Assembly: GCF_008727815.1 (NCBI RefSeq)
Contig: NZ_CP044230.1
Span: forward strand, 170,001-234,000
Length of the DNA stretch: 64,000 nt
Origin: Streptococcus sp. LPB0220
GTDB taxonomy: Bacteria > Bacillota > Bacilli > Lactobacillales > Streptococcaceae
Reading direction: 5' to 3'
Shown here: in pieces, positions 48,992 to 63,502 of the stretch
Position numbering within the stretch: the stretch's first letter is position 1
Layout of the letters: each line of letters opens with the position of its first letter
Translations under genes and position numbers: made by a program
Notes under the pieces: model-generated
What the model saw: the letters and a program-made list of their open reading frames with translations, nothing else
Database searches by the model: none
Told to the model about the DNA's origin: nothing

Positions 48992-48999
48992 GAGATGAT

Positions 49000-49554
49000 A
49001 TGGATACAAAGAAAATTGAAGAAGCAGTAAAAATGATCATCGAGGCAGTCGGTGAAGATGAGAACCGTGAGGGGCTTCAAGAAACCCCGTCCCGCATTGC
49101 CAAGATGTACCAAGAAATCTTTTCAGGACTAGGGCAGACAGCAGAAGAGCACCTGTCTAAATCATTTGAAATCATTGATAACAATATGGTGGTTGAGAAG
49201 GATATTTTCTTCCATTCCATGTGTGAGCATCACTTTTTACCGTTTTATGGAAAAGTGCACATTGCCTACATTCCAAATGGCCGTGTTGCTGGGCTTTCAA
49301 AACTGGCTCGTACGGTCGAAGTTTATGCTAAAAAACCACAGATTCAGGAACGTTTGACGGTAGAAATCGCAGATGCCTTGATGGAATATCTTGGAGCGCA
49401 AGGTGCCCTTGTCTGGGTAGAAGCAGAGCATATGTGTATGAACATGCGGGGTGTCCGTAAACCTGGGACCGCTACAGTGACAACTGCTGCGCGTGGACTG
49501 CTTGCGACAGATAAAGACTTAAAAAATGAAGCCTATAAACTCATGGGCCACTAA
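49000..49554 (+). CDS. folE: GTP cyclohydrolase I
   Basis: First enzyme of pterin synthesis, 184 residues. Zinc ligands in CEHHFLPF (Cys-His-His) and the later [13 protein letters not shown]; helical N-terminal part with [16 protein letters not shown]. Corresponds to pneumococcal sulC. Confidence 0.96.
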
Positions 49555-49579
49555 TGGCTGGCTATAAGAGGTGAACAGA

Positions 49580-50389
49580 GTGGATCAATTACGGATCAAG
49601 GACTTAGAGGTATACGCCTATCACGGTGTTTTCCCAGCAGAAAAAGAATTAGGACAACGCTTTGTCCTAGACCTATGGGTAGATTATGAGATGACTCGTG
49701 CTGCCCGCACAGGTGATTTGGAAGCTTCGATCCATTATGGGATCTTGGCGGAACAGTTGACCGAGTGGATGCAGGCAGAAAAGATCGATCTGATTGAAAC
49801 GGTGGCCTTTCAGTTGGTGCAAAAGATTTTCGAAAGCTATGCCTTTGTAGAAAAAGTTCGTCTGGAGTTAAAAAAACCTTGGGCTCCTGTTCCCTTGCCA
49901 TTAGAGACTTGTTCGGTGACAATCGAACGGGAGAAAAAACGGGCCTTTATTGGGCTTGGCACCAATATGGGAGATAAACAACTGCAACTAGAGACGGCGC
50001 TAGAAAAACTCAAGGATCGAGGCATTCGCCTTCTTCAGACATCCACAAGGATTGAAACAGAACCTTGGGGAGGAGTGGAGCAGGACACCTTTTTGAATCA
50101 GGTGGCAGAGGTTGAAACCTGGATGACCCCAGAGGATTTATTAGAGACCTTACTGGCCATTGAGCAGGAAATGGGGCGTGTCCGTGAGATCAAGTGGGGG
50201 CCACGTGTGATCGATCTAGATCTGCTCTATATGGAGGACACCATTTGTTACAGTCCTAGCCTGATATTACCGCATCCTTATGTGGCAGAACGTGCCTTTG
50301 TCCTAGAGTCTTTGAATGAAATTGCTCCTCATTTTGTGGACCCTGTTCAAAGAAAGCCCATTCGCCAATTATGGGAGGCTGTCAAATAG
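49580..50389 (+). CDS. sulD: bifunctional dihydroneopterin aldolase / HPPK (FolB-FolK)
   Basis: Fusion of 269 residues making the pterin pyrophosphate used by FolP. FolB domain 1-118 ([19 protein letters not shown]), FolK domain 119-269 ([19 protein letters not shown], then [12 protein letters not shown]). GTG 49580 lies 8 bases after AAGAGG and gives the [10 protein letters not shown] start of pneumococcal SulD; GTG 49571 inside the ribosome site is unlikely. Last gene of the operon. Confidence 0.93.
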
Positions 50390-50410
50390 TCCCTCTTCTT
50401 TGCATCATAA

Positions 50411-50438
50411 AAAAACAATCCCTATTCGAGGGATTGTT
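50411..50438 (-). terminator. terminator for leftward transcripts (DUF1846 gene)
   Basis: AACAATCCCT-ATTCG-AGGGATTGTT; the A-run at 50408-50415 is a T-run on the minus strand. It lies 22 bases after sulD, far from the gene it should end. Confidence 0.75.
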
Positions 50439-50521
50439 GAGAGCGTAGAGAAACGAATCTTTAATAAAATCTAATCAATTCTTTAAAAATTATACTCGTT
50501 ATAGTTATTCAATCATATTCT

Positions 50522-50682
50522 GAAACTTTCCGCCGTGAGAAAAGTGCCTGAAACGACTCAGTTTCAGGCACTCGGAATTATTGGGACCTTAGGCTCAATA
50601 ATTAGTCATGGAACTTCGTAGAAGTTCGCTGACGTCCGTACTCGCCTAAGGAAAGTTTTTTAAGAAGACTTTGTCTTCAATC
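50522..50682. repeat. hairpin-rich dispersed repeat
   Basis: Bounded by GAAACTTTCC (50522-50531) and GGAAAGTTTT (50650-50659). It contains perfect hairpins AGTGCCTGAAAC/GTTTCAGGCACT (50543-50572), AATTATTG/CAATAATT (50576-50603), GAACTTC-GTA-GAAGTTC (50611-50627) and GAAGAC-TTT-GTCTTC (50664-50678). Its right 45 bases match 21620-21663 in reverse; its left 18 match 52377-52394 in reverse. No coding sequence. Confidence 0.75.
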
Positions 50683-50684
50683 TG

Positions 50685-50713
50685 AACAATTCCTAAAACA
50701 GGGATTGTTTTTG
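50685..50713 (+). terminator. terminator for rightward transcripts (folate operon)
   Basis: AACAATTCCT-AAAAC-AGGGATTGTT followed by TTT. Its right arm forms a 13-bp perfect inverted repeat with the left terminator (50411-50423). Confidence 0.78.
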
Positions 50714-50724
50714 TTTGTCTGAGT

Positions 50725-52209
50725 TTATTTACGATACAAGCGATCGTATTGGTAGACAGGGTCCATGGTGACGTTGATGCCGAGCTTGCGAAGGACATTC
50801 TTGTCTTCGTCTGTCAGCATCACGGTTGAGTGGGCTTCGCTACCTTTCAACTTGCCTAATTCTTGCATAGCAAGCTTAGCATCTTCGTTGCTCATGGCTG
50901 TAATGGCCAGGGCGATGAGGATCTCGTTTGAGTGAAGACGAGGGTTACGGCTACCCAAATGATTGATCTTCAAGCCTTGGATAGGTTGGACGTATTCTGG
51001 CTCGATTAATTTGGTTTCTTTATCAATATGCGCCAATTTCTTGATCGCATTGATCAAGAGGGCTGCCGTTGGACCAAAGAGATCAGAGGTTTTTCCGGTC
51101 ACCATCTCGCCGTTTGGCAATTCAAGGGCCAAGGCTGGCTCCCCTGTTTCTTCTTCTTTCTGACGAGCAAGCACGGTCACTTTCCGGTCATTTGGAGTAA
51201 TGCCCAAATCATTCATCAAGAGCTCAATCTTCTTGACAGCTCCTTCACCGACACGCTCTGCTTTAACATCCAAGATTGTTTGGTAATAGCGACGGATGAT
51301 TTCTTGTTGGGAAGCTTCAATCGCAGCGTCATTGTCCACAATGGCAAAGCCAACCATGTTGACGCCCATGTCTGTTGGAGAAGCGTAAGGAGAGGTTCCT
51401 AAGATGCGTTCCAACATGCGCTTCAAGACAGGGAAGATTTCGATATCGCGGTTGTAATTGACCGTTGTTTCCCCGTAGGTTTGGAGGTGGAAAGGATCGA
51501 TCATATTGACATCGTCTAGATCTGCAGTCGCTGCTTCATAAGCCAAGTTGACTGGGTGGTGCAAAGGAAGATTCCATACTGGGAAGGTTTCAAACTTAGC
51601 ATAACCGGATTTGATCCCATTTAATTGGTCATGGTACATATTGGACATACAAGTTGCCAGCTTACCAGAACCAGGGCCAGGAGCTGTCACAACGACCAAA
51701 TTGCGACTAGTTTTGATGTAGTCATTTTTCCCCATCCCTTCAGGAGAGATGATGTGGTCCATGTCGGTCGGATAGCCCTTGATCGGATAGTGGAGATAAG
51801 AGGCGATCCCGCTCTTATCCAGTTGTTTGCGAAAGGCATCTGCTGCAGCTTGTCCAGCATATTGGGTGATCACGACAGAGCCCACAAAGATCCCTAATTC
51901 ATTGAATTTGTCGATCAAGCGTAGCACTTCTTGGTCATAAGAAATTCCTAGGTCTCCACGGGCTTTTGAGTGCTCAATGTTGTTGGCGTTGATGGCAATG
52001 ACAATTTCCACCTGGTCGCGCAATTCTTGGAGCAGCTTGATCTTATTGTCTGGTTCGTATCCAGGGAGGACACGAGCAGCGTGGAAGTCTTCTAACATCT
52101 TACCACCAAATTCAAGGTAGAGCTTGCCATCGAATTGATTGATCCGCTCAATAATGTGGTCACGTTGCAAGTTCAAATACTTTTCAGAACTAAAAGCTTG
52201 TTTTTTCAT
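50725..52209 (-). CDS. DUF1846 family protein
   Basis: Conserved protein of 494 residues, DUF1846/UPF0371 family. ATG 52209 ([20 protein letters not shown]) follows AGGAG; a frame 15 codons longer lacks a ribosome site. Conserved patches: [42 protein letters not shown] (a P-loop-like stretch) and [20 protein letters not shown]. Structures of the family suggest nucleotide binding, but the reaction is unknown to me. Soluble. Single gene converging on the folate operon. Confidence 0.88.
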
Positions 52210-52292
52210 GTAAAACTCCTGCATATAAGGAAAGGGCCTGCTACACAGAATCAAGGATGAGTGTTCAGTTCCCTACCATTTCATTCTTTCAT

Positions 52293-52301
52293 ATTATATC
52301 A
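52293..52301 (-). promoter_or_regulatory. promoter of the DUF1846 gene
   Basis: Extended -10 TGATATAAT on the minus strand, 84 bases before the ATG. No clear -35. Confidence 0.6.
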
Positions 52302-52333
52302 GAAAAGCGATGGAAGATAAAATATTCTAAGAT

Positions 52334-52394
52334 ACTTTCCATAGGGAAGTGTGGATGCCAAAGAGCTCAATGGTGACTCACGGTGGAAAGTTTC
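52334..52394. repeat. short member of the GAAACTTTCC repeat family
   Basis: ACTTTCC-ATAG-GGAAGT opens it, and CTCACGGTGGAAAGTTTC (52377-52394) closes it. The latter is the reverse complement, with one mismatch, of the left end of the element at 50522-50539. Confidence 0.55.
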
Positions 52395-52414
52395 CAAGAG
52401 AACCTTGTTTCCCT

Positions 52415-52439
52415 CCTAAAAAAGCCCCTTACGGGGCTT
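52415..52439 (-). terminator. pepA terminator
   Basis: Minus strand AAGCCCC-GTAA-GGGGCTT followed by TTTTTT (plus-strand A-run 52416-52421). Confidence 0.88.
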
Positions 52440-52453
52440 CAGATAGGATTTGC

Positions 52454-53518
52454 TTAATAGTGTTTGATCAGATCAACTGTAGAACGATCCAATTTCTTAA
52501 CCAATGCTTGCAAGAAGGCTTGCGCTTGCAAGAAATCATCCATGGCATAGAGGGTTTGGTGTGAGTGGATGTAACGTGCGCAGACACCGATGGTTGTTGA
52601 TGGGACTCCGCCGTTCTTCAAGTGTGCTGCACCTGCATCGGTACCACCTTTGGCACAATAGTATTGGAATTTAATGCCCGCTTCCTCAGCAGTTGTGAGC
52701 AAGAAGTCTTTCATATTTGGTAGCATGATGTGACCTGGATCGTAGAAGCGAAGCAGTGTTCCTTCACCAATCGCGCCCTGGTCCCCAAAGACATCCGCTG
52801 CTGGTGAACAGTCTACAGCAAGGAAGATTTCAGGATCAAATTTAGTAGTTGAGGTGTGGGCACCACGAAGTCCTACTTCTTCTTGAACGTTAGCCCCTAC
52901 ATAGAGTTCGTTGTTTAAGGCTTGTCCAGAAAGACTCTTGGCCAATTCGCTGACCATCAAGACGCCGTAGCGGTTATCCCATGCTTTGGAGATGACGTTT
53001 TTACCATTAGCAGTGAGAATCGCAGAGCTATCTGGAACCAAAGTATCTCCAGGACGGACCCCATAGCTTTCAGCTTCGGCTTTAGAGCTAAAGCCTGCAT
53101 CAAAGACGATGCCGCTAATGGCAGGTACGGTTGGTCCACCTGTTCCACGTGTCAAATGAGGAGGAACAGATCCGGAAATAGCAGGGTATTCACGTCCATC
53201 ACGTGTAAAGAGTTTGAAGCGTTGGCTGCTGACGACCATCGGATTCCAACCTCCGATTGGGACAACACGGAAAGTTCCGTCAGCTTTGATTTCGCTGATC
53301 ATAAAACCAACTTCGTCCATGTGGGCAGCTACTAAGATACGAGGAGCGTCGGCAGCTGTTGAGTGTTTGACTCCAAAGATCCCACCGAGACCATCTGTCA
53401 CGATTTCGTCCACATGAGGGGTCAATTGTTGGCGCAAATAATCCCGTACAGGAGCTTCATGACCTGAGATGGCAGGGATTTCAGTTACTTCTTTGATTTT
53501 AGAAAATAAATCAGTCAT
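52454..53518 (-). CDS. pepA: glutamyl aminopeptidase (M42 family)
   Basis: Cytosolic metallo-aminopeptidase of 354 residues removing N-terminal acidic residues. M42 motifs: VAAHMDEVGFMISEI (metal His, catalytic Asp), DNRYG (bridging Asp region), NVQEEVGLRGA (catalytic Glu pair), AVDCSPAAD, and a C-terminal HSHQTLY metal site. GAAGGTAACC upstream gives a weak ribosome site. Monocistronic. Confidence 0.95.
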   Translation of the reverse strand: MTDLFSKIKEVTEIPAISGHEAPVRDYLRQQLTPHVDEIVTDGLGGIFGVKHSTAADAPRILVAAHMDEVGFMISEIKADGTFRVVPIGGWNPMVVSSQRFKLFTRDGREYPAISGSVPPHLTRGTGGPTVPAISGIVFDAGFSSKAEAESYGVRPGDTLVPDSSAILTANGKNVISKAWDNRYGVLMVSELAKSLSGQALNNELYVGANVQEEVGLRGAHTSTTKFDPEIFLAVDCSPAADVFGDQGAIGEGTLLRFYDPGHIMLPNMKDFLLTTAEEAGIKFQYYCAKGGTDAGAAHLKNGGVPSTTIGVCARYIHSHQTLYAMDDFLQAQAFLQALVKKLDRSTVDLIKHY

Positions 53519-53625
53519 AGGTTACCTTCTTTCTGATGCTATTTTATCACTTTTTCTACAAGGATGGTAGCGTTATTATAGAAATCGGTCCCGAAAAACT
53601 GAAGGAGGAGATCCAGCCTAGACCA

Positions 53626-53661
53626 TTGTCCCTCTGCTTATTTTGTGTTACAATAGGCACT
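53626..53661 (+). promoter_or_regulatory. promoter of the DUF4651 gene, predicted leaderless
   Basis: TTGTCC (53626-53631), 17-base spacer, TACAAT (53649-53654) with TG extension, then 7 bases to the ATG. No ribosome binding site fits between. Confidence 0.62.
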
Positions 53662-53952
53662 ATGAAAGCTAAAAAAATTATTTTGTCTAGTCTGGCTGTA
53701 GCAAGTGCAGGAGCTCTTGCGGCCGGTGTTTATAAAATTGCCAAAGATCAAAAGCGTCTCCGTACTCAAGAAGAGTTGGTAGCAGAAGTACGGGAGCAAA
53801 TGGAAGCTATGGGGACGATTGCGACCTTGTATGTGGAACTCTACGAGTCTAGTGAAGAGCGTTTAGTAGGAGGCGTCATTTTTGAAGATGAGCGCCATTA
53901 CCGCTTTGTCTATGAGGATGGTCTTTTGCAGTACGAAGAGGAAAAACTATGA
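53662..53952 (+). CDS. DUF4651 family small membrane-anchored protein
   Basis: Protein of 96 residues: N-terminal helix KIILSSLAVASAGALAAGVY (about 5-24) anchoring it in the membrane, then a charged coiled part and a DUF4651-like C-terminus (IFEDERHYRFVYEDGLLQYE). ATG 53662 fits relatives and the promoter; upstream codons in frame have no usable start. Overlaps the thioredoxin gene by 4 bases. Function unknown, but its fixed pairing with a thioredoxin gene suggests a redox link. Confidence 0.82.
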   Translation: MKAKKIILSSLAVASAGALAAGVYKIAKDQKRLRTQEELVAEVREQMEAMGTIATLYVELYESSEERLVGGVIFEDERHYRFVYEDGLLQYEEEKL

Positions 53953-54266
53953 TTACACCAAATTCTCTAGAAGAAATTGCTTCTTATGTAGAGCAAGAGG
54001 GCAAGAAAGTCTTTGTCTTTTCAGCGGACTGGTGTGGGGATTGCCGTTATCTCAAGCCTTTTTTGCCGGAGATTGAGGCTGAAAATCCCGAATTTACCTT
54101 TATCTTAATTGACCGAGATGCCTATATGGATCTGGCGAAAGTCTGGGATGTTTATGGGATCCCTAGTTTGGTGGTTCTGGAAAAGGATAAGGAAATCGGA
54201 CGGTTTGTCAATCGGGATCGGAAAACTAAAGCCCAGATTACAGCATTCTTAGCAGGATTAAAATAG
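53949..54266 (+). CDS. thioredoxin-like protein
   Basis: Thioredoxin-fold protein of 105 residues with active site SADWCGDCRYL (Cys29 and Cys32) and cis-Pro in YGIPSLVVL. CGDC differs from the classic CGPC, pointing to altered redox potential. No signal peptide, cytoplasmic. Starts inside the DUF4651 gene (ATGA) and is followed after 9 bases by ytpR. Confidence 0.9.
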   Translation: MITPNSLEEIASYVEQEGKKVFVFSADWCGDCRYLKPFLPEIEAENPEFTFILIDRDAYMDLAKVWDVYGIPSLVVLEKDKEIGRFVNRDRKTKAQITAFLAGLK

Positions 54267-54275
54267 GAGAAGAAC

Positions 54276-54902
54276 ATGATTGTAACATACAACAAAGAAC
54301 AAGTCGGCGATGTATTGATGCTGACCTTGAAAAACAGTGGTGAAGCTAAGCTAGCGGTGGAGAGAAAAGGGAAGGTGGCTCGCGTTTACCGTGAGGACAA
54401 CCAAGAAACAGTTGCCTGGAATATCTTTGAACTCTCAACTATCTTTGCCGTAGAAGGCAAGGGCCAAGTCTTTTTGACAGATGAGCAAGTGGATCGTTTG
54501 AACCAAGAATTGGAAAGAGAAGGTTTTTCAGAACGCTTGGTCAATGATCGGGAACCAAAATTTGTGGTGGGAGAAATCCTTGAAATGGTGGCCCATTCAG
54601 ATAGTGACCACTTGAATATCTGCCAAGTAGCAGTTGGACCAGATAAGACAGTTCAGATTGTAGCAGGGGCTCCAAATGCGCGAGTGGGCCTCAAGACCAT
54701 TGTCGCTCTTCCAGGTGCTATGATGCCGGATGGCAGCTTAATTTTCCCAGGGGCTCTTCGTGGAGAAAAAAGCTATGGCATGATGTGCAGTCCGCGTGAA
54801 TTGCACTTGCCAAATGCTCCTCAAAAACGAGGTATTATTGAATTAGATGACGCAGAAGTAGCAGGGACACCTTTTGATCCTGCTCGTCACTGGCACGAAT
54901 AA
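54276..54902 (+). CDS. ytpR: YtpR family tRNA-binding protein
   Basis: Protein of 208 residues with an N-terminal DUF4479 domain and a C-terminal EMAP/PheT-type OB-fold tRNA-binding domain (about 90-200: VGEILEMVAHSDSDHLNICQ then GAPNARVGLKTIVALPGAMM and SYGMMCSPRELHL). Binds tRNA nonspecifically in relatives; exact function unknown. Last gene of the DUF4651-thioredoxin-ytpR group. Confidence 0.9.
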   Translation: MIVTYNKEQVGDVLMLTLKNSGEAKLAVERKGKVARVYREDNQETVAWNIFELSTIFAVEGKGQVFLTDEQVDRLNQELEREGFSERLVNDREPKFVVGEILEMVAHSDSDHLNICQVAVGPDKTVQIVAGAPNARVGLKTIVALPGAMMPDGSLIFPGALRGEKSYGMMCSPRELHLPNAPQKRGIIELDDAEVAGTPFDPARHWHE

Positions 54903-54910
54903 AGAGAAGA

Positions 54911-54942
54911 ATCTAGGATGTTTTGGATCCTAGATTTTTTTG
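54911..54942 (+). terminator. ytpR terminator
   Basis: ATCTAGGAT-GTTTTGG-ATCCTAGAT followed by T-run. Confidence 0.9.
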
Positions 54943-54976
54943 ATTTTGGTTTGTCACCTCCATTTTTTAAATTTTT

Positions 54977-54984
54977 TTCGAATA
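54977..54984 (+). promoter_or_regulatory. ComX cin-box of ssbB
   Basis: TTCGAATA behind a T-run, 20 bases before the ssbB start; same octamer and same distance as at comGA. Confidence 0.82.
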
Positions 54985-55003
54985 AATAGATAGGAGGTAA
55001 ATG

Positions 55004-55399
55004 ATGTATAATAAAGTTATTTTAATCGGTCGCTTAGTGGCGGCCCCAGAATTGCATAAAACCAGCACAGACAAATCCGTTGCCCGAGTGACCGTTGCGG
55101 TCAATCGTCGCTACAAGGACCAAAACGGGGAGCGAGAGACTGATTTTGTCAATGTCGTTGTCTGGGGGAAATTGGCTGAAACCATGGCTAGTTATGCCAG
55201 CAAAGGGAGTTTGATCTCTTTGGATGGAGAGATTCGGACGCGCCGCTACGAGAAAAATGGCATCATGCAGTATGTGACAGAGGTCCTCTGCCAAAGTTTT
55301 CAGTTATTAGAGAGCCGCGCTCAGCGAGCGATGCGTGAAAATGGTGGAACGGGAGATTTAGCCGACATCATTTTAGAGGAGGAAGATCTTCCTTTTTAG
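55004..55399 (+). CDS. ssbB: SsbB, competence-induced single-strand DNA-binding protein
   Basis: Single-strand binding protein of 131 residues: OB-fold (1-105, MYNKVILIGRLVAAPELHKT) and a short acidic end LEEEDLPF that contacts partner proteins. Much shorter than housekeeping SSB, as expected for SsbB, which stores incoming transforming DNA. AGGAGG precedes two adjacent ATGs; 55004 matches pneumococcal SsbB, 55001 is possible. Late competence gene. Confidence 0.93.
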   Translation: MYNKVILIGRLVAAPELHKTSTDKSVARVTVAVNRRYKDQNGERETDFVNVVVWGKLAETMASYASKGSLISLDGEIRTRRYEKNGIMQYVTEVLCQSFQLLESRAQRAMRENGGTGDLADIILEEEDLPF

Positions 55400-55411
55400 A
55401 AACAAAAAAAG

Positions 55412-55441
55412 AAAGCTGGTTCGTTTATAGACCAGCTTTTT
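55412..55441 (+). terminator. ssbB terminator
   Basis: AAAGCTGGT-(10)-ACCAGCTTT followed by TT. Confidence 0.9.
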
Positions 55442-55529
55442 TGATACTTGCTAGGGATTTCATTCGGGAACTACTCTTTTTAAAATGAATCAAAAATATG
55501 CATCTGTACAATAAAAGCCAGCACTTTTC

Positions 55530-55557
55530 TTGAAAAAGTAGTAAAATAAAGTAATAT
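55530..55557 (+). promoter_or_regulatory. candidate promoter of the sensor operon
   Basis: TTGAAA (55530-55535), 16 bases, TAATAT (55552-55557), about 30 bases before the TTG start of the first binding protein. Confidence 0.5.
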
Positions 55558-55588
55558 ATATTCAAAATTTTCAGAAAAGGAACGGAGT

Positions 55589-56572
55589 TTGAAGGGGAAA
55601 GAAGAAAGAAAAGAACGGTTGAAATGGCTGATAAAACGGGTTTTACTGGTGATTCCAGTGGCCTGCATCCTCTTGTGGATCTATGCCGTTTGTCAAACCA
55701 GTAGCATCAAGGATCAGACCAAGATCGGTGTCACCTATATGACCATGAACAATGAGTTCTATAAAAGTATTCATTCGGAAATTAGTCGGATTGCCGATGA
55801 GAAAGGGGCTCTTGTATCTGTCCGAGATCCAGAATTGGACGAAAAAAGGCAGAGCCAGCAGATCGATGATTTTTGCGCTCAAAAGGTAAATGTGATTGTG
55901 ATTAATCCGGTCAAAGGGGATAGTCAGCCCATTTTAAGAGCTCTTAAAAAAGCTAGAAAACAAGGAATTAAGATTATTGCAGTTGATACCCAGCTCAAGC
56001 ATTTTAAGCCGGATGCCAGCATTGTCTCTGATAACTACCAAGCAGGAGTCTTGATTGCGAAAGAGTTGATGAAACGCTCTTCAAATGCTCGTATTTTGCT
56101 CTTGGAGCATAAGGGGACTGTTTCGGCAGATACGCGGATACAGGGATTTAAGGATACCATCAAAGGACATGGCTCTTATCAGATCATCTCGGAACTAGAA
56201 ACCAAGGGGCAGACGGAGATCGCCATGCCTGCTGTCCGTAAGTTCTTGCAGTCAGGGGGAAATATCGATACACTAGTCGCCCTGAATGACCGCTCAGCTA
56301 TAGGAGCTTTAGCGGCCATCAAGGAGCAAGGAATCACCCACCCCATTGCGATCTATGGGATTGATGGCTCACCAGATATGAAAGCCTTGCTGCACTCGAC
56401 AGATGATGTCGTGGGAACCGTTGCCCAGTCTCCGTTGAAGATGGGAGACCGCGTGATGGAGGTCATCCAAGATATGGCTGATGGGAAGAGCTACCAAAAA
56501 GAAATAACCATTCCGGTTCAAATGATGACAAAGGAAAACATCGATCAATTTGATGTGAATGGGTGGCAGTAA
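55589..56572 (+). CDS. membrane-anchored sugar-binding protein, RbsB/LacI-type fold
   Basis: Protein of 327 residues: one N-terminal membrane helix (about 14-35, VLLVIPVACILLWIYAVC) and a periplasmic-binding type I domain (about 40-325) like RbsB (KIGVTYMTMNNEFYKSIHSE, VNVIVINPVKGD, VSDNYQAGVLIAKELM). The Cys after the helix is preceded by AV, not a lipobox, so it stays as a signal anchor. TTG start behind GGAACGGAG. No permease or ATPase is nearby; the next genes encode a kinase and regulator, so it is more likely a sensor subunit than a transport protein. Ligand unknown, probably a sugar. Confidence 0.85.
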   Translation: MKGKEERKERLKWLIKRVLLVIPVACILLWIYAVCQTSSIKDQTKIGVTYMTMNNEFYKSIHSEISRIADEKGALVSVRDPELDEKRQSQQIDDFCAQKVNVIVINPVKGDSQPILRALKKARKQGIKIIAVDTQLKHFKPDASIVSDNYQAGVLIAKELMKRSSNARILLLEHKGTVSADTRIQGFKDTIKGHGSYQIISELETKGQTEIAMPAVRKFLQSGGNIDTLVALNDRSAIGALAAIKEQGITHPIAIYGIDGSPDMKALLHSTDDVVGTVAQSPLKMGDRVMEVIQDMADGKSYQKEITIPVQMMTKENIDQFDVNGWQ

Positions 56573-57888
56573 TGAGAAAATTTAGAGGTGTGAGATACAG
56601 TTTGGCCATTCTGATGGTCGTGAATTTTATCGCTGTGATGCTCAACAGTATCATCTATCTTCAAGCAACCAACTATATCATTGCCCAACGGCAAGCTTCT
56701 CTATTAGTAGAACGTTTAGAGCGTATTCCTTTTGCGCCTTCGACAACTTTTTGGTTGTCTGCGCTCTTATTTGCTGGAATTGCCTTGATCTCCATGAGTC
56801 GTTACCGGTCTCAAACGAGTCGATGGTCCATTTTTGATAAGTGGAACATTTTGGAGATCCTCCTGATGTTGCTCTTGATGTGGGTCCAAAATGTAGCTTA
56901 TAACGGGCTGATTCTCTTGGTTTTTGCGGATATCTTCTATGGTTCCAAAGAGTTGAATACCAAGCGAGACCGCAAGTATTGGTTTGCGTTTATCCTAGTG
57001 AGTTTCTTGATTCTACTTGTGACCAATTCAGACGTCTTTTCGCTTTTCTTTCCGATACCTTCTCTGGATGTCTATATTCATTTTTACCCTGCCTCCATCC
57101 GGATTCTGGCCTTTTTCTTAAAGAATTCCCTCTATGCCTTGAATATGGTTCTCTTCATTATTTCGCTTTTGTTCTATATTATGAATGTTCTTGCGGAAAA
57201 CCACGAAGTAGAAGAAGAGCTGGCCATGGTTTCGAAGGTGAATACGGAGTTGAACAACTATATGGCCTTGTCTGAGAAGATTGCAGAGGATCGAGAGCGC
57301 AAGCGGATTGCTCGGGAGATTCACGATACCTTGGGACACGCGCTAACAGGGATATCGGCAGGCTTAGATGCTGTCGGAGTCTTGATTGATATCGATCCCA
57401 ATCGGGCAAAAGAGCAGGTAAAAAGCGTATCAGAAGTTGTCCGTGAAGGAATCCAGGATGTGAGGGGCTCTCTTAACCGCCTCCGTCCAGGTGCCCTTGA
57501 GGGACGAACCCTCAAAGATGCTTTAGAAAAGATGATCCGCGAGTACCAGACGCTTTCCAACTTGCAGGTTGATTTACACTATGAATGGGTCGATGTCGAT
57601 ATGGACGTCATGATTGAAGATACGATCTTTCGTGTGATCCAAGAGTCTATGACCAATGCGGTTCGCCACGGTCATGCCAGTCAGATGAGCCTTCATTTTT
57701 TTGAGGATGAAGAAGATTACCTGATCGAGTTGCAGGACAATGGGGTTGGGTTTGAAACCTTGACTTATGGCTATGGACTCAAACAGATGATGGAACGAAT
57801 TTCTATCCTAGGAGGACAGCTTCAATTTGAAAGCCGCGATGGATTTTTCACGCGCGTCAGTTTACCGAAATATAAAGAAGGGAGATAA
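56572..57888 (+). CDS. NarL-class sensor histidine kinase with polytopic membrane domain
   Basis: Kinase of 438 residues. N-terminal membrane domain with about six helices (1-205) and no sizeable extracellular sensor, then a coiled segment, HisKA_3 domain with RKRIAREIHDTLGHALTGI (His251), and a HATPase with QDNGVGFETLTYGYGLKQMM. ATG overlaps the binding-protein stop (TAATG). Without a sensor domain of its own, it may get its signal from the flanking binding proteins (inference). Confidence 0.9.
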   Translation: MRKFRGVRYSLAILMVVNFIAVMLNSIIYLQATNYIIAQRQASLLVERLERIPFAPSTTFWLSALLFAGIALISMSRYRSQTSRWSIFDKWNILEILLMLLLMWVQNVAYNGLILLVFADIFYGSKELNTKRDRKYWFAFILVSFLILLVTNSDVFSLFFPIPSLDVYIHFYPASIRILAFFLKNSLYALNMVLFIISLLFYIMNVLAENHEVEEELAMVSKVNTELNNYMALSEKIAEDRERKRIAREIHDTLGHALTGISAGLDAVGVLIDIDPNRAKEQVKSVSEVVREGIQDVRGSLNRLRPGALEGRTLKDALEKMIREYQTLSNLQVDLHYEWVDVDMDVMIEDTIFRVIQESMTNAVRHGHASQMSLHFFEDEEDYLIELQDNGVGFETLTYGYGLKQMMERISILGGQLQFESRDGFFTRVSLPKYKEGR

Positions 57889-57891
57889 GAG

Positions 57892-58578
57892 ATGGTAATA
57901 AAAGTAATGGTGGCAGATGACCAGGCCTTGATTCGAGAATCTCTGAAAATTATTTTGTCAGCCCACCCCGATATCGAAGTGGTGGCCACAGTGGAAGACG
58001 GCAATCACGTCCTGTCTAGCATTCCCCAAACCCATCCTGACCTAATCTTGATGGATATCCGGATGCCAGGGATGGATGGGGTTTTGGCGACAAAAGAAGT
58101 AAAAGAACACTATCCGGATATCAAAATTATTATTTTAACGACCTTTGATGATGATGAATTTATCTATAGTGCGCTCAAGTATGGTGCTTCAGGTTATCTT
58201 TTAAAGGGAGCCTCGACAGAGGAACTCTATGAAGCGATTAAGGTGGTGTATCAGGGCGGAGCCATGATCAACCCGAATATCGCTAGTAAAGTCTTTCAAA
58301 TTTTCTCACAAATGGCTAAATCCAACTTCTCTATTGCTGTGGATGAGGACAATGTCAAGGATTTGAGCACAACAGAATGGCGCATTATCCAAGAAGTTGG
58401 CTATGGGGAGTCCAATAAAGAAATTGCGGCCAAACTCTTCTTGTCAGAAGGAACCGTGCGCAATTACTTATCAACGATTTTGGCGAAATTAAACCTAAGA
58501 GATCGAACGCAATTAGCGATCTGGTCAGTCCAAACTGGAGTGACGAGACGTGATTTTTCTAAAGGAAATACAGAATGA
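57892..58578 (+). CDS. NarL/LuxR-family response regulator
   Basis: Regulator of 228 residues: receiver domain with D9/D10 and phospho-acceptor Asp55 (LILMDIRMPGMDG), Thr and Lys switch residues in ILTTFDDDEF and YLLKGAS, and a C-terminal LuxR helix-turn-helix (about 150-215, SNKEIAAKLFLSEGTVRNYL). Partner of the kinase 3 bases upstream. Overlaps the next gene by 4 bases. Probable target: the PTS operon about 1.4 kb downstream (inference). Confidence 0.92.
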   Translation: MVIKVMVADDQALIRESLKIILSAHPDIEVVATVEDGNHVLSSIPQTHPDLILMDIRMPGMDGVLATKEVKEHYPDIKIIILTTFDDDEFIYSALKYGASGYLLKGASTEELYEAIKVVYQGGAMINPNIASKVFQIFSQMAKSNFSIAVDEDNVKDLSTTEWRIIQEVGYGESNKEIAAKLFLSEGTVRNYLSTILAKLNLRDRTQLAIWSVQTGVTRRDFSKGNTE

Positions 58579-59873
58579 AATTGAAGCGAAAGCATCTTTG
58601 TTGGGGGCTTGGTCTCCTTGTTGCGCTCTGTGCGAGCGCGAGTTTTTATTGGTGGAAACAGCAACCGACCGTGCTTCATATTGGCGTGTATGCAGGTTCT
58701 AGTTGGGATGTGCCGACCAGTCAACGTTCCCATGCCTTGGATCGTGCGATTGAAAAATTTGAAAAGTCTCATCCCCACGTTCGTGTGGAGTATGAAAATG
58801 GGATCCCGCAGTCAGATTATTCAGACTGGCTCTCTGAAAAGATTGTCTCAGGAAAGACACCAGATGTGTTTATGGTCTCTGAGCAAGATCTTTCCTTATT
58901 AGCGGCGCGTGGCGTATTAGAAAAGTTAAACGGCTATATGGATCGAAAAGATCAAGCTGCCTTTTACCCCGTTGCCTTTGAATCAGGTGTCTATCAGGGG
59001 CAAACCTATGCCTTACCTTATGAAAGTAATCCGATTTTGATGTGTGTCAATAAAGATCTCTTGGATAAAGAAGGCATCGCGGTTCCTAAAGAAGGTTGGA
59101 CCCTTGAAGAGTTCTATACGATTTGCAAGAAACTAACCAAAGATACCAATGGAGATGGGCAATTGGACCAATTTGGGAGCACAGAATACACCTGGAAAGA
59201 AGCCTTGGCGGCAAATGGAGGTCATCTCTTCCAAGGAGGCATGCTCAAGCTGACAGCTCCAAAAGTCAAAGAGTCTTTGACTTTTCTTCAAAAATTGGAA
59301 GATCTAAATAAAAATTACAAGGTGAGCTCTAAAGATTTTGACCAGGGGAAAGTCGCCTTCTATCCCATGACCTTGGCCCAATATCGGACCTATAAACCTT
59401 ATCCCTACCACGTTTCTAAATATTCAAACTTCACCTGGACCTGTATCCCGATGCCGGCTAAGTCAAAAACGACCAAGGCAACCTTGGTCACGACGACTTC
59501 TTTTGCTATGTCAGCCCGAAGTTCTCATTCCAAGTTAGCTTGGGAGTTGATGCAAGTTTTGACAGAGGATCCAGAAATTCAACAAACCCTCTTTGCCCAA
59601 TCCCAAGGGATCTCTGTCATGCCACAGGTAGTCAAGAGTCGCTCTAGTAAAGACCTTCTGCAGGTGGATGATTTTGGAACGGATTCCCTGACCAATCAGA
59701 CCTTGAACCGCATCATGGAACAAGCTGTTGAAAGTAGTCCTAAAAATGTCTCAAAAGAGGTGCTAGAAAAGCTAGACTACTTGATTGGCAATGCCTTGCG
59801 CGATCAAGATGTTGAGAACCGCTTGCCTCAAATTCAGAGGGAGATTGAAAGTAGTCTACAGGTAGGAGTTTAG
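58575..59873 (+). CDS. membrane-anchored solute-binding protein, family 1
   Basis: Protein of 432 residues with N-terminal hydrophobic helix (about 8-28, LCWGLGLLVALCASASFYWW) and a family 1 extracellular binding domain (ALDRAIEKFEKSHPHVRVEY, GKTPDVFMVSEQDLSLLAAR, YALPYESNPILMCVNKDLLD). Neither Cys lies in a lipobox, so it is likely a signal-anchored or secreted protein. The second binding protein of this operon and, unlike transport operons, it has no permease gene. Starts within the regulator gene (ATGA). Confidence 0.85.
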   Translation: MKLKRKHLCWGLGLLVALCASASFYWWKQQPTVLHIGVYAGSSWDVPTSQRSHALDRAIEKFEKSHPHVRVEYENGIPQSDYSDWLSEKIVSGKTPDVFMVSEQDLSLLAARGVLEKLNGYMDRKDQAAFYPVAFESGVYQGQTYALPYESNPILMCVNKDLLDKEGIAVPKEGWTLEEFYTICKKLTKDTNGDGQLDQFGSTEYTWKEALAANGGHLFQGGMLKLTAPKVKESLTFLQKLEDLNKNYKVSSKDFDQGKVAFYPMTLAQYRTYKPYPYHVSKYSNFTWTCIPMPAKSKTTKATLVTTTSFAMSARSSHSKLAWELMQVLTEDPEIQQTLFAQSQGISVMPQVVKSRSSKDLLQVDDFGTDSLTNQTLNRIMEQAVESSPKNVSKEVLEKLDYLIGNALRDQDVENRLPQIQREIESSLQVGV

Positions 59874-59884
59874 AGTAAAATAAG

Positions 59885-59919
59885 ATGGCATTTTGTCAAG
59901 TGACAGATGTCATTTTTTT
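59885..59919 (+). terminator. terminator of the sensor operon
   Basis: ATGGCATTTTGTCA pairs with TGACAGATGTCAT (one bulge, one G-U), loop AG, then T7. Confidence 0.8.
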
Positions 59920-59925
59920 ATTGCT

Positions 59926-59986
59926 AAATGTCATATTGGGAATGTGACATTTGACAATGTAAAAGCGCTTTCAAATAGTCTACAAT
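59926..59986 (+). promoter_or_regulatory. PTS operon control region: inverted repeat, cre and promoter
   Basis: AAATGTCA (59926-59933) and TGACATTT (59945-59952) form a perfect 8-bp inverted repeat with 11-base spacing. On the minus strand TTGAAAGCGCTTTTA (59974-59960) fits the CcpA consensus at 14 of 15 positions. TACAAT at 59981-59986 is the likely -10, with TGTAAA 17 bases before it. Confidence 0.75.
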
Positions 59987-60013
59987 AGAGTCAAATAAAG
60001 GAGGCGTAGCAAA

Positions 60014-60451
60014 ATGAAATACCTCATTTTGGTCAGTCATGGTGGACTGGCAGAAGGTCTAAAAACATCACTAGCCATGTTTGCTGGTGATAAGATGGAT
60101 CAGGTCATCGCGGTTGGACTCAAAGAAGGAAAATCGGTCGATGACTTCGCAGTTGATTTCAGAGAGAGCATTTCAGGATTGACAGCTGATGATTCTGTTT
60201 TGGTCTTGGCAGATATCGTAGGTGGTAGTCCATTAACCACTGCAGCCACGGTTCTAGAAGAAGCTGGAAAGCTCGATGGAGCCTTGATTCTTGGTGGGAT
60301 GAACCTCACCATGGCCTTGACGGCAGTTGTGATGAAGGATGTGTTGGATGGAGACGATTTGTCAGCCACCATCTTATCAGAAGCACGATCTGCACTACAG
60401 CCTTTTGAAGTTTCAGCCACTGGTGCTGAAGAAGATGATGACGATATTTAA
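60014..60451 (+). CDS. PTS mannose-family EIIA
   Basis: Cytoplasmic phosphocarrier of 145 residues. MKYLILVSHGG places the phosphorylated His at position 9; DIVGGSPLTTAATVLE is the family core. C-terminal acidic tail EEDDDDI. Separate IIA and IIB genes distinguish it from ManL, which fuses both, so this is not the main glucose/mannose PTS. First gene of IIA-IIB-IIC-IID; GGAGGCG ribosome site. Confidence 0.93.
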   Translation: MKYLILVSHGGLAEGLKTSLAMFAGDKMDQVIAVGLKEGKSVDDFAVDFRESISGLTADDSVLVLADIVGGSPLTTAATVLEEAGKLDGALILGGMNLTMALTAVVMKDVLDGDDLSATILSEARSALQPFEVSATGAEEDDDDI

Positions 60452-60465
60452 TAGGGAGGTACCTT

Positions 60466-60960
60466 ATGGTAGTAACATTTGTACGGATTGATGACCGCAT
60501 GATTCACGGTCAGACAGTCACACGCTGGGCAAAGGAAAAACCATGTGATGGTTTGATTGCCGTAAACGATGCAGCAGCATCAAACAAGGTTTTGATCCAA
60601 GCTTACAAAGGTGCATCAGACAAGAAAACCTTTGTATGGACAAAGGAAGCCTTTAAAGAAAAATCAGCAAAAGTAACAGAATCAGATAGTCGTTACTTCT
60701 TGATCACCAAAAATCCAATCGATATGAAGGAAATTTTGGTCGACCAAGGGTTTGTCCCAGGTGATGTTAAAGAAATCATCGTAGGCCCTGCCAATGATCG
60801 TCCTGGAGCTGTGAAATTGGGAAATAACCAATCCATCACTCAGGAAGAAGCAGAAGCCTTCCAAGCTATTCAAGCAGCAGGCTACAAGGTGAAATTCCAA
60901 TTGTTGCCAGATGTTTCCATCGGTTATTGGGATGATTTCAAATCAAAATTTGGTTTTTAA
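60466..60960 (+). CDS. PTS mannose-family EIIB
   Basis: Phosphotransfer protein of 164 residues. FVRIDDRMIHGQTVTRWAKE contains His14, which passes phosphate from IIA to the sugar. GGGAGG ribosome site. Substrate not readable; other members transport mannose, sorbose, galactosamine or fructose. Confidence 0.93.
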   Translation: MVVTFVRIDDRMIHGQTVTRWAKEKPCDGLIAVNDAAASNKVLIQAYKGASDKKTFVWTKEAFKEKSAKVTESDSRYFLITKNPIDMKEILVDQGFVPGDVKEIIVGPANDRPGAVKLGNNQSITQEEAEAFQAIQAAGYKVKFQLLPDVSIGYWDDFKSKFGF

Positions 60961-60962
60961 AA

Positions 60963-60982
60963 CTAACAGTCCTATCTGTTAG
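60963..60982 (+). other. intercistronic hairpin IIB/IIC
   Basis: Perfect CTAACAG-TCCTAT-CTGTTAG without T-run; possible processing or stability element separating soluble from membrane subunits. Confidence 0.5.
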
Positions 60983-61016
60983 GTAAATAAATTTACAAAC
61001 AAAAGGAGCGTTTGTT

Positions 61017-61859
61017 ATGACAATTTCATGGATTCAAGCAATCTTGCTTGGTATTTTCGCCAGCTTGTCTTCAATGCCTGGTATGGGAGGTTCCAGTATC
61101 GGGAACTATACACTCGGTCGTCCTTTGATCGGTGGGTTGATTTCAGGTTTAATTCTTGGAGATGTGACAACTGGTATTATGGTCGGGGTTGCCCTTCAAG
61201 TCGTTTATATCGCCTTGGTAACACCTGGTGGTACCGTATCTGCCGATGTGCGTGCCATCTCTTACATCGGTGTTCCTCTTGCTATCTTGTTTGTGCATGC
61301 CAATAACATCACAGATGAAGCTGGAATCGCCGCAGCTGCAGCTCCAATCGGTGCAGCCGTTGGGACAATCGGTACAGTTCTTTTCTACGGTACCGCTACT
61401 ATGAACTTGGTTTGGCAACACATTGGTTGGAAAGCCGTTGAAGAAGGGAACTTCAAAAAACTCTACGCAGTTGACTGGGTTTACCCTTGGATCTCTCACT
61501 TCCTCTTCTCTTTCCTTCCAACAATGATTATCACCAAATACGGTGAAAACATGGTTGATTTGATGAAACAATACCTTCCTATGGATGGTTACTGGATGAA
61601 AGCCCTCTTTACAGTCGGTGCTCTTCTCCCATGTGTCGGTATTGCCATCTTGTTGAAACAAATTGTTACAGAAGCAACTGACTTCATTCCATTCTTTGTT
61701 GGATTTACCTTGGCGAAATCTCTCGGATTGAACTTGGTATCCAGTGCCGTTGTTTCATTAATCTTTGCAGTAATCTACTATGAACTTGAAGTGATCAAAT
61801 CGATGAAAGCTGCTCCAGCCGGAGCGGTGGATCTAGACGATGATGAGGAGGATATTTAA
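61017..61859 (+). CDS. PTS mannose-family EIIC
   Basis: Membrane channel subunit of 280 residues with several hydrophobic segments. Family patches GMGGSSIGNYTLGRPLIGGL and DVTTGIMVGVALQVVYIALV. Acidic C-terminus DLDDDEEDI resembles that of the IIA. AAAGGAGCG ribosome site. Confidence 0.93.
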   Translation: MTISWIQAILLGIFASLSSMPGMGGSSIGNYTLGRPLIGGLISGLILGDVTTGIMVGVALQVVYIALVTPGGTVSADVRAISYIGVPLAILFVHANNITDEAGIAAAAAPIGAAVGTIGTVLFYGTATMNLVWQHIGWKAVEEGNFKKLYAVDWVYPWISHFLFSFLPTMIITKYGENMVDLMKQYLPMDGYWMKALFTVGALLPCVGIAILLKQIVTEATDFIPFFVGFTLAKSLGLNLVSSAVVSLIFAVIYYELEVIKSMKAAPAGAVDLDDDEEDI

Positions 61860-61860
61860 A

Positions 61861-62697
61861 ATGGCTGATAGAAAGAAAATTTCAAAGAAAACATTAGCAA
61901 AAGCATTCCATCATTGGTATTATGGTCATTTGACTTGTTTCTCTCAAGAACATATGCAAACCTTCGGGTACTTGACTTCTATGCTTCCAATCGTAGAAGA
62001 AATGTATGACACAAAAGAAGAACAAAAGGATGCTATGCAAACCTATACAGCCTTCTTCAACACTGAACCACAACTTGGATCTCTTGTTGTAGGGATCACA
62101 GCTGGTTTGGAAGAAGCGCGTGCAAACGGAGATGCAGTAGATGGCGAAACCATCAACGGTATGCGTGCCGGTTTGATGGGACCAATCGCTGGTATTGGTG
62201 ACTCATTGGTTGTTGGTACCTTGATCCCAGTTCTCTTGGGGATTGCCCTTGGTCTTTCTAAAGGTGGTAACGTCGCTGGTGCTCTCTTCTACATCGTCGT
62301 ATGGAACCTCTTAGTCTACTTTGGTATGCGCTTTGCCTTCTTCAAAGGTTACCAATTAGGGGATAAAGCCGTTGAATTCCTTGTAGGACCAAAAGGACAA
62401 GCTCTTCGTAAAGCGATCAGCGTTGTCGGTGGTATGGTTATCGGTGCCGTAGCAGCTACTTGGGTATCTGTTACAACAGCCCTTCAATTCAAGAACGCTG
62501 AAGGAAAAGTCTTCTTGAACATCCAAGAAAAGATCGATGGTGTTTATCCAGGTCTCTTGACAGCGGCCTTCATCACTCTTTGCTGGTGGTTGATGTCTAA
62601 GAAAAAAATTTCACCAAACAAAGTTATGTTACTTCTCGTTGTAGTGGCTTTGATCGGTGTTGCCCTTGGTATCTTTGATCCACATCTTAAATACTAA
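61861..62697 (+). CDS. PTS mannose-family EIID
   Basis: Membrane subunit of 278 residues acting with IIC. AFHHWYYGHLTCFSQEHMQT and GLMGPIAGIGDSLVVGTLIP are IID hallmarks; large cytoplasmic N-terminal part and C-terminal helices. ATG 61861 follows GAGGATAT, one base after the IIC stop. Confidence 0.94.
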   Translation: MADRKKISKKTLAKAFHHWYYGHLTCFSQEHMQTFGYLTSMLPIVEEMYDTKEEQKDAMQTYTAFFNTEPQLGSLVVGITAGLEEARANGDAVDGETINGMRAGLMGPIAGIGDSLVVGTLIPVLLGIALGLSKGGNVAGALFYIVVWNLLVYFGMRFAFFKGYQLGDKAVEFLVGPKGQALRKAISVVGGMVIGAVAATWVSVTTALQFKNAEGKVFLNIQEKIDGVYPGLLTAAFITLCWWLMSKKKISPNKVMLLLVVVALIGVALGIFDPHLKY

Positions 62698-62730
62698 GGA
62701 AAAGAAAAACGAATTTGCTAGTAGGAGTTT

Positions 62731-62782
62731 TTGAGAATGAAGTGAATTGACCTCCTTTACTTGCACTTCATTCTCAATTTTT
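62731..62782 (+). terminator. strong hairpin after IID with anti-Shine-Dalgarno loop
   Basis: Perfect 14-bp stem TTGAGAATGAAGTG (62731-62744) / CACTTCATTCTCAA (62764-62777), followed by TTTTTA. The 19-base loop contains CCTCCT (62751-62756), complementary to the AGGAGG of the next gene (about 62786-62791). Confidence 0.85.
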
Positions 62783-62797
62783 ATCAGGAGGAATCCC

Positions 62798-63091
62798 ATG
62801 GTTACAAAACAAGAACTTGTCAATGGATATGAAACAGAAATCAAGTACCAACGCCACATGCTTGAAAACCTTGGTCGTTGGTTCAGCTTACTCTTTATCA
62901 TTGCCAGTATTGGTGTGGTATTGATCTATCTCTTTCACAAAAGTTTCCTCCCACTCTTGATCCTCGGGATTTTACTAGCCTTGGTTGGAATTTTAGGCAT
63001 GATTGTTTTTGGATATGGCATCTACCGCGGGCGGATCAATCTTCAAAAAGTGATCGATGATTTCAATCAAAAATTGACAATTTTAAATTGA
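62798..63091 (+). CDS. small two-helix membrane protein, unknown function
   Basis: Protein of 97 residues not recognised with certainty. Amphipathic start (MVTKQELVNGYETEIKYQRH), two membrane helices (about 29-46 and 50-73) and a short basic end; somewhat like DUF202-type proteins. ATG 62798 behind CAGGAGG. Directly follows the PTS operon past a terminator hairpin, so it is transcribed by readthrough or from an unseen promoter. A PTS accessory role is possible but unsupported. Confidence 0.7.
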   Translation: MVTKQELVNGYETEIKYQRHMLENLGRWFSLLFIIASIGVVLIYLFHKSFLPLLILGILLALVGILGMIVFGYGIYRGRINLQKVIDDFNQKLTILN

Positions 63092-63100
63092 TATTTTAGA

Positions 63101-63132
63101 AACATCTCATTTATTTTTGAGGTGTTTTTTTC
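63101..63132 (+). terminator. terminator after the small membrane protein gene
   Basis: AACATCTCA-(8)-TGAGGTGTT (one G-U) followed by T5. Confidence 0.85.
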
Positions 63133-63198
63133 TTGACTATTTCTGACCAAGTGATACAATAGAAACATAAGTTAGCACTTACGTATAGAGAGTGCTAA
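63133..63198 (+). promoter_or_regulatory. groESL promoter and CIRCE operator
   Basis: TTGACT (63133-63138), 16-base spacer, TACAAT (63155-63160). CIRCE TTAGCACTT-N9-GAGTGCTAA (63172-63198), one mismatch from the standard TTAGCACTC arm. It is the binding site of the heat-shock repressor HrcA and covers the early transcribed region. Confidence 0.93.
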
Positions 63199-63220
63199 AA
63201 ACACGTATGGAGGAATGAAA

Positions 63221-63502
63221 ATGTTAAAACCATTAGGAGACCGTGTGGTCTTAAAAGTAGAAGAAAAAGAACAGACTGTTGGAGGTTTTGTCCTCGCAGG
63301 TGCGAGCAAGGCTGATACAAAAACAGCAGAAGTAGTGGCTGTTGGTGAAGGTGTGCGTACCCTAAGTGGTGAACTCATTGCTCCAGCTGTAAAAGCAGGA
63401 GACCACGTTTTGGTTGAAAGCCATGCAGGAATTGAAGTGAAAGATGGGGAAGAAACCTACACCATCGTTGGAACAGCAAACATTCTTGCAATTGTAGAGT
63501 AA
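63221..63502 (+). CDS. groES: GroES co-chaperonin
   Basis: Lid of the GroEL chaperonin, 93 residues: [20 protein letters not shown], mobile loop [11 protein letters not shown]-terminal LAIVE. ATG 63221 is 7 bases after TGGAGG; ATG 63215 is too close. HrcA-controlled through CIRCE. Confidence 0.96.

Follow-up and report, generated by a model that had tools for sequence, protein, structure and literature searches.

What does a streptococcus do with two sugar-binding proteins that are encoded on either side of a two-component system, with no transporter gene close by? This question is raised by four genes at positions 55589 to 59873 of a 64,000-nucleotide stretch of Streptococcus sp. LPB0220 (contig NZ_CP044230.1, positions 170,001 to 234,000 of the forward strand), here called the window; the genome to which it belongs is 2.13 Mb in size, and a plasmid search gave no matches. 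The answer is that these genes are almost certainly the Streptococcus parasanguinis version of the LevQRST system of Streptococcus mutans, and they are named here by the published S. mutans numbering, in which LevT is the binding protein encoded first and LevQ the one encoded last:

55589..56572, plus strand: levT, anchored type I (RbsB-like) sugar-binding protein, 327 amino acids, TTG start
56572..57888, plus strand: levS, sensor histidine kinase, ATG at 56572, six long helices in the first half, DesK-like core
57892..58578, plus strand: levR, NarL/LuxR-type response regulator
58575..59873, plus strand: levQ, anchored family 1 (MalE-like) sugar-binding protein, 432 amino acids

All four open reading frames (ORFs) are open and intact, and they are tightly packed: levT and levS overlap by one base, three bases separate the end of levS (57888) from levR, and levR and levQ overlap by four bases. 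Pfam finds Peripla_BP_4 in LevT (E 6.6e-44), HisKA_3 and HATPase_c in LevS, Response_reg and GerE in LevR, and SBP_bac_1/SBP_bac_8 in LevQ. A first-pass annotation, made from the letters alone, had described just such a row of binding protein, kinase, NarL regulator and binding protein, overlapping or at most three bases apart, and ORF coordinates and Pfam agree with it. It had also seen in both binding proteins an N-terminal hydrophobic helix and no lipobox; indeed, a single N-terminal hydrophobic segment is present in each, and no lipobox-like match was found in the window LevT or LevQ (among sequences from the fetched loci, a loose lipobox pattern matched 3 of 83 LevT and 8 of 84 LevQ).

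The LevQRST system of Streptococcus mutans

LevQRST of S. mutans, a bacterium of tooth decay, combines two sugar-binding proteins associated with the membrane with a histidine kinase and a response regulator (PMC3043104, Zeng, Das and Burne 2011). That paper describes the lev operon as having no ABC (ATP-binding cassette) transporter genes nearby, and gives as targets the levDEFG genes immediately downstream, plus fruA (PMC3043104). There, LevQ, LevS and LevR are required and LevT partly so, a levQ mutant expresses levD and fruA at baseline, the inducers are fructose and mannose, and LevR binds the fruA and levD promoter regions (PMC3043104). Similar operons are listed for S. gordonii, S. sanguinis, two lactobacilli, Clostridium acetobutylicum and Dorea longicatena (PMC3043104).

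A sensor with two binding proteins is therefore already known, and the system described with these parts is not new. The suggestion of the first-pass annotation that two binding-protein folds in one sensor would be novel falls away, as LevQRST had been described with both folds (PMC3043104); what might have been a new finding is closed by a 2011 paper, itself citing earlier work, in which this sensor is studied genetically in S. mutans (PMC3043104). Of lasting use are the three sites of the operator, which are sharply conserved, the sugar pocket of LevT, which has hardly changed, and a partial picture of the module's distribution; with these it becomes easier to test which sugar each protein binds and in what way LevS senses the binding.

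Immediately 3' of levQ, Pfam identifies the IIA, IIB, IIC and IID enzymes (EIIA to EIID) of a mannose-family phosphotransferase system (PTS):

60014..60451, plus strand: levD, PTS EIIA, mannose family (Pfam)
60466..60960, plus strand: levE, PTS EIIB (Pfam), 88% identity to the S. mutans-type LevE
61017..61859, plus strand: levF, PTS EIIC (Pfam)
61840..62697, plus strand: levG, PTS EIID (Pfam)
62798..63091, plus strand: ORF for a 97-amino-acid protein conserved among the loci, last gene of the lev-PTS block

No Pfam or NCBIfam model matched the 97-amino-acid protein at E 0.001; its gene stands at the position of levX. The window thus reads levT-levS-levR-levQ-levDEFG-97-residue gene, flanked by ssb and groES.

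A direct comparison was made possible by a genome that carries an exact 29-base published primer, found in 2 of 284 genus genomes (one of them G235, locus L066). In this locus the only cysteines of LevT are at 12 and 149, and the only ones of LevQ, read from one possible start codon, at 161, 188, 296 and 336, exactly the positions mutated in the published work (PMC3043104); LevT D72, LevQ E170, D202 and F292, and LevS I253 also stand at published positions (PMC3043104). The label "S. mutans-type", used below for G235 and L066, rests on these primer and residue-position matches. The two loci share the four domain types and their order, the PTS downstream and the operator motif discussed below, and the whole succession ssb-levT-levS-levR-levQ-levD-E-F-G-97-residue gene-groES is the same. 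They differ in that no fruA was detected in the window genome, and in sequence: LevT, LevS and LevQ are 47-52% identical to the S. mutans-type proteins (LevT 47%, LevQ 48%), LevR 68%, and the PTS subunits 68-88%. Closer relatives are found within S. parasanguinis: the LevT of the window is 99% identical to that of strain S32 and 96-98% identical to those of other loci under this species name, and on this ground the window is assigned to S. parasanguinis. The inducers and the phosphotransfer known from S. mutans would be expected to apply in the window's species as well.

The levD promoter and its predicted operator

If the window genes are LevQRST, is the PTS operon their target? The interval between levQ and levD holds the following elements:

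59901..59912, no strand assigned: LevR-type dyad, site 1, exact TGACANNTGTCA / TGACAGATGTCA
59922..59933, no strand assigned: LevR-type site 2, 8/10 match
59945..59956, no strand assigned: LevR-type site 3, 9/10 match
59958..59973, plus strand: cre-like CcpA site, from the sequence
59981..59986, plus strand: -10-like hexamer TACAAT of the levD promoter, a sequence reading with no canonical -35 seen

Site 2 lies 21 bp past site 1, and site 3 a further 23 bp on; the cre-like call is made by the CcpA consensus. Of 197 Streptococcus genomes, among them that of the window, 75 have a full-length or near-full-length LevS, and 75 streptococcal levD upstreams were collected, from 74 of these genomes (L131 is without levD) and from G235; 71 are distinct. 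The exact dyad is present in 70 of the 71, compared with 1 of 3550 dinucleotide shuffles, and at least two sites of at least 8/10 occur in 67 of the 71, compared with 1.1% of the shuffles. Successive sites are most often 21 bp (59), 23 bp (53) or 7 bp (39) apart, the last being overlapping partial matches. Upstreams from outside the genus are not part of the count of 70; by eye, the exact dyad is present in L029 and absent from L030.

The S. mutans-type genome connects this motif with published genetics. An exact dyad stands there 5' of a 1,443-codon ORF of glycoside hydrolase family 32 (GH32), taken as fruA, and 46 bp before a TATACT; if the latter is at -12 to -7, the dyad is at -72 to -59. 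The published fruA dyad has this same position; it is described as required for fruA expression and as the likely LevR target (PMC9241797). The distance from site 2 to the -10 in the window is also 46 bp, as at the S. mutans-type fruA dyad, and 47 bp at the S. mutans-type levD. Judging from these sequences, the system very probably acts on the PTS operon. The first-pass annotation, in which anchored binding proteins drive the kinase and the PTS is the target, thus stands in outline: the levD dyads and the genetics of S. mutans (PMC3043104) support the target, and the passage of the signal from protein to protein keeps the status of a proposal.

Over the whole window genome the exact dyad occurs in five places, and a reversed control pattern in one (exact matches only). 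Of the four dyads away from levD, three fall inside ORFs or at an ORF start, one of these across the start codon of an ORF that we take to be arginine-deiminase-like. The fourth is 60 bp 5' of an ORF whose sequence start resembles an ABC binding protein, and no second site was seen there by eye. None of the four was counted as a LevR target. No site of 8/10 or better stands in the 200 bases that lead up to and into levT, so there is no sign of autoregulation.

Sensor proteins, fruA and rival readings

The LevT model (mean predicted local distance difference test, pLDDT, 93) has a long N-terminal helix, residues 2-36, followed by an RbsB-like fold whose best solved relatives are ribose-binding proteins. 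Pocket columns were picked by alignment with the ribose-pocket residues of RbsB: D133, R183, N233, D259 and Q280 are invariant in all 37 aligned sequences, N54 and Y58 are kept in 36 each, and F57 in 35. By sequence and fold LevT also matches BT1754, a hybrid two-component sensor of Bacteroides (PDB 2x7x), in which an RbsB-like fructose-binding domain feeds a kinase; there the domain is part of one hybrid protein, according to the PDB title, whereas LevT is a separate anchored protein and is accompanied by a second binding protein. LevQ is nearest to an arabino-oligosaccharide-binding protein and to maltose-type proteins. Its F292, one of two residues changed in a published constitutive LevQ mutant (PMC3043104), is invariant in 35 of 35 aligned sequences, and E170 is kept in 28 of the 35.

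How could such proteins speak to the kinase? The LevS model (mean pLDDT 82, predicted template modeling score, pTM, 0.51) shows six long helices and a few short ones, the sixth predicted to be continuous with the dimerization region, and no extracellular domain, which agrees with the "about six helices" and missing sensor domain of the first-pass annotation. A PDB fold search finds the kinase half DesK-like, and among the 50 matches listed the membrane half has none of its own. For S. mutans LevS up to five membrane helices have been predicted, and LevQ/LevT-dependent effects have been placed at transmembrane helices 4 and 5 (PMC3043104). In the proposed mechanism, a single N-terminal helix anchors LevT and another LevQ in the membrane; the two proteins would bind sugars outside the cell and pass the signal to LevS, itself lacking an extracellular sensor domain, probably through contacts between membrane helices. 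LevS would then phosphorylate LevR, and LevR would bind the tandem TGACA-N2-TGTCA sites 5' of levDEFG and turn on the fructose/mannose PTS, with additional control through the cre-like site.

As for fruA, only two GH32 genes are present in the window genome, with open frames of 487 and 491 amino acids, neither of which reaches FruA length. Judged by sequence starts, the neighbors of one are ABC sugar-importer genes; next to the other lie a sucrose-type PTS gene and a LacI-type regulator. FruA-like matches of more than 1,000 residues occur in at least 28 of the 197 genus genomes, 22 of which have LevS, and none was found in 53 of the 75 LevS genomes; with at most three candidates scored per genome, these numbers for fruA are minimum values. 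The fructanase tends to occur together with the sensor (Fisher p 3.5e-6, uncorrected for kinship), yet the sensor is often present without the fructanase, as in the window. In eight fetched loci a fruA-like gene lies 0.4-1.6 kb 5' of levT. With no fruA found in the window genome, the regulon may shrink to the PTS, and here it would consist mainly of the PTS operon.

Several points weigh against identifying the window genes with LevQRST in every respect. The functional evidence all comes from S. mutans, none from the window's species; direct contact of LevQ or LevT with LevS is without biochemical demonstration in the 2011 study (PMC3043104); and identities of only 47-50% in the alignments of LevT, LevS and LevQ mean that, on sequence grounds, the inducers could be different. 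In ribose-binding relatives the pocket aspartate is followed by an arginine; in LevT that position is S, T or A, and hence the LevT pocket differs from the ribose pocket. One of the 71 levD upstreams, L110, lacks the dyad, and the 70 that have it are related sequences, not independent cases. The other published target, fruA, was not found in the window genome; 6 of the 28 FruA-bearing genomes are without LevS; and upstream of the eight neighboring fruA-like genes the dyad is weaker than at levD (exact in 2, 9/10 at best in 5, none in 1).

Are other readings better placed? The one with most room is an ortholog whose ligand has shifted, so that another sugar, for example mannose from glycans, is sensed rather than fructose from fructans. 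The missing FruA-type fructanase and the 47-48% identity of LevT and LevQ to the S. mutans-type proteins favor it, but the five invariant pocket columns of LevT, the EIIB 88% identical to its S. mutans-type counterpart and the fact that mannose is already a published inducer (PMC3043104) make it unlikely. Very improbable is the idea that LevT and LevQ are orphans of ABC importers, serving a remote permease and lying beside the two-component system by chance. Both families are mostly binding proteins of ABC importers; however, the order levT-levS-levR-levQ is fixed in all 75 genus loci, on which this reading was rejected, the window proteins are without a lipobox, and the baseline phenotype of the levQ mutant (PMC3043104) speaks against it too.

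The first-pass annotation had pointed to XylFII-LytS of clostridia as the known parallel. The logic of a binding protein acting as the sensor of a kinase is indeed shared, and LevT is RbsB-like, with XylF-type matches far below the cut-off. XylFII-LytS has one binding protein, a LytS-type kinase (His_kinase, PF06580), an AraC-type YesN regulator and a xylose ABC importer under its control, whereas the kinase here is HisKA_3 and DesK-like with no match to PF06580, the NarL-type regulator carries GerE and no AraC domain, and the locus has two binding proteins and a PTS in place of the importer. Membership was rejected on the domain content of kinase and regulator, and its probability is close to nil.

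Occurrence and neighborhoods of the lev genes

The reading of the window genes as LevQRST is accompanied by a stable neighborhood within the genus. The complete nine-gene block, closed by the 97-amino-acid protein, is in order in 70 of the 75 LevS genomes. Five depart from this: L025 and L131, at contig ends; L113, where 4.3 kb separate levQ from the PTS and the region ends inside the PTS; and L088 and L140, without a match to the 97-amino-acid gene. In the remaining 122 genomes the best matches to LevS (E 2e-18 to 5e-29) cover, among those listed, mainly the shared kinase core.

Outside the genus, LevS matches of E <= 1e-35 were found in 9 of 398 phylum genomes (the other two of 11 hits being the window genome and a genus member). 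All four lev genes are adjacent as separate ORFs in six (L151, L152, L153, L154, L156 and L158). In L155, levT, levS and levQ are in place, but no levR ORF was kept where a longer reverse ORF overlaps; L157 has levS-levR-levQ at a contig end, and L159 only the kinase-regulator pair. PTS genes 40-72% identical to those of the window lie downstream in L151 and upstream in L152, nearby PTS matches are only 24-34% identical in L153, L154 and L155, and no PTS genes were seen near the lev genes of L156, L158 and L159. The PTS is downstream in L029 and upstream in L030 (a Hungatella metagenome-assembled genome, MAG), both outside Streptococcus.

The first-pass annotation had expected the four genes to occur together without permeases. 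In the genus, levT-levS-levR-levQ is found at every locus; outside it, a ribose-type ABC importer (Peripla_BP_4, ABC_tran, BPD_transp_2) adjoins the sensor genes in place of a PTS in L157 (2937-10018) and in L031 (148-6887, a Clostridiaceae MAG). Neighborhoods were found through LevS or LevT, LevT being the only binding protein surveyed separately, and in these loci the homologs are not mainly encoded with ABC permeases, the two cases above being real exceptions. No ABC permease or ATPase is present among the ten flanking proteins scanned in the window (47681-63499, 16 kb, lev and PTS genes apart), where the annotation had seen neither permease nor ATPase; these are three folate-pathway enzymes, a DUF1846 protein, an M42 peptidase, a DUF4651 protein, a thioredoxin, a tRNA-binding-domain protein, SSB and GroES.

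A wider scenario is possible, if rather doubtful: in the S. parasanguinis lineage a four-component system for fructan sensing may no longer have a fructanase as its target and may have become, by narrowing or retuning, a sensor that serves one operon and reads free or host-derived hexoses, levTSRQ being a portable two-ligand module that outside streptococci is coupled to a PTS upstream, a PTS downstream or a ribose-type ABC importer.

Three minor observations concern individual lineages. In 4 of the 75 LevS genomes, G050, G002, G154 and G127 (loci L079, L080, L081 and L067), levS has one or more in-frame stops and the neighboring lev genes remain, a sign that a few lineages may have lost the kinase recently. 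EIIC and EIID are about 71/76% identical to those of the window in L092, L095 and L100, compared with 87/88% in L090, L091 and L093, with sensor proteins equally distant; this pattern would fit an exchange of the PTS half among relatives. Finally, a gene for a HAD-type hydrolase (Hydrolase_3) lies 3' of the lev genes in L151 (15043), L152 (11979) and L158 (13726), by Pfam, and in L030 (14349), by its sequence start only.

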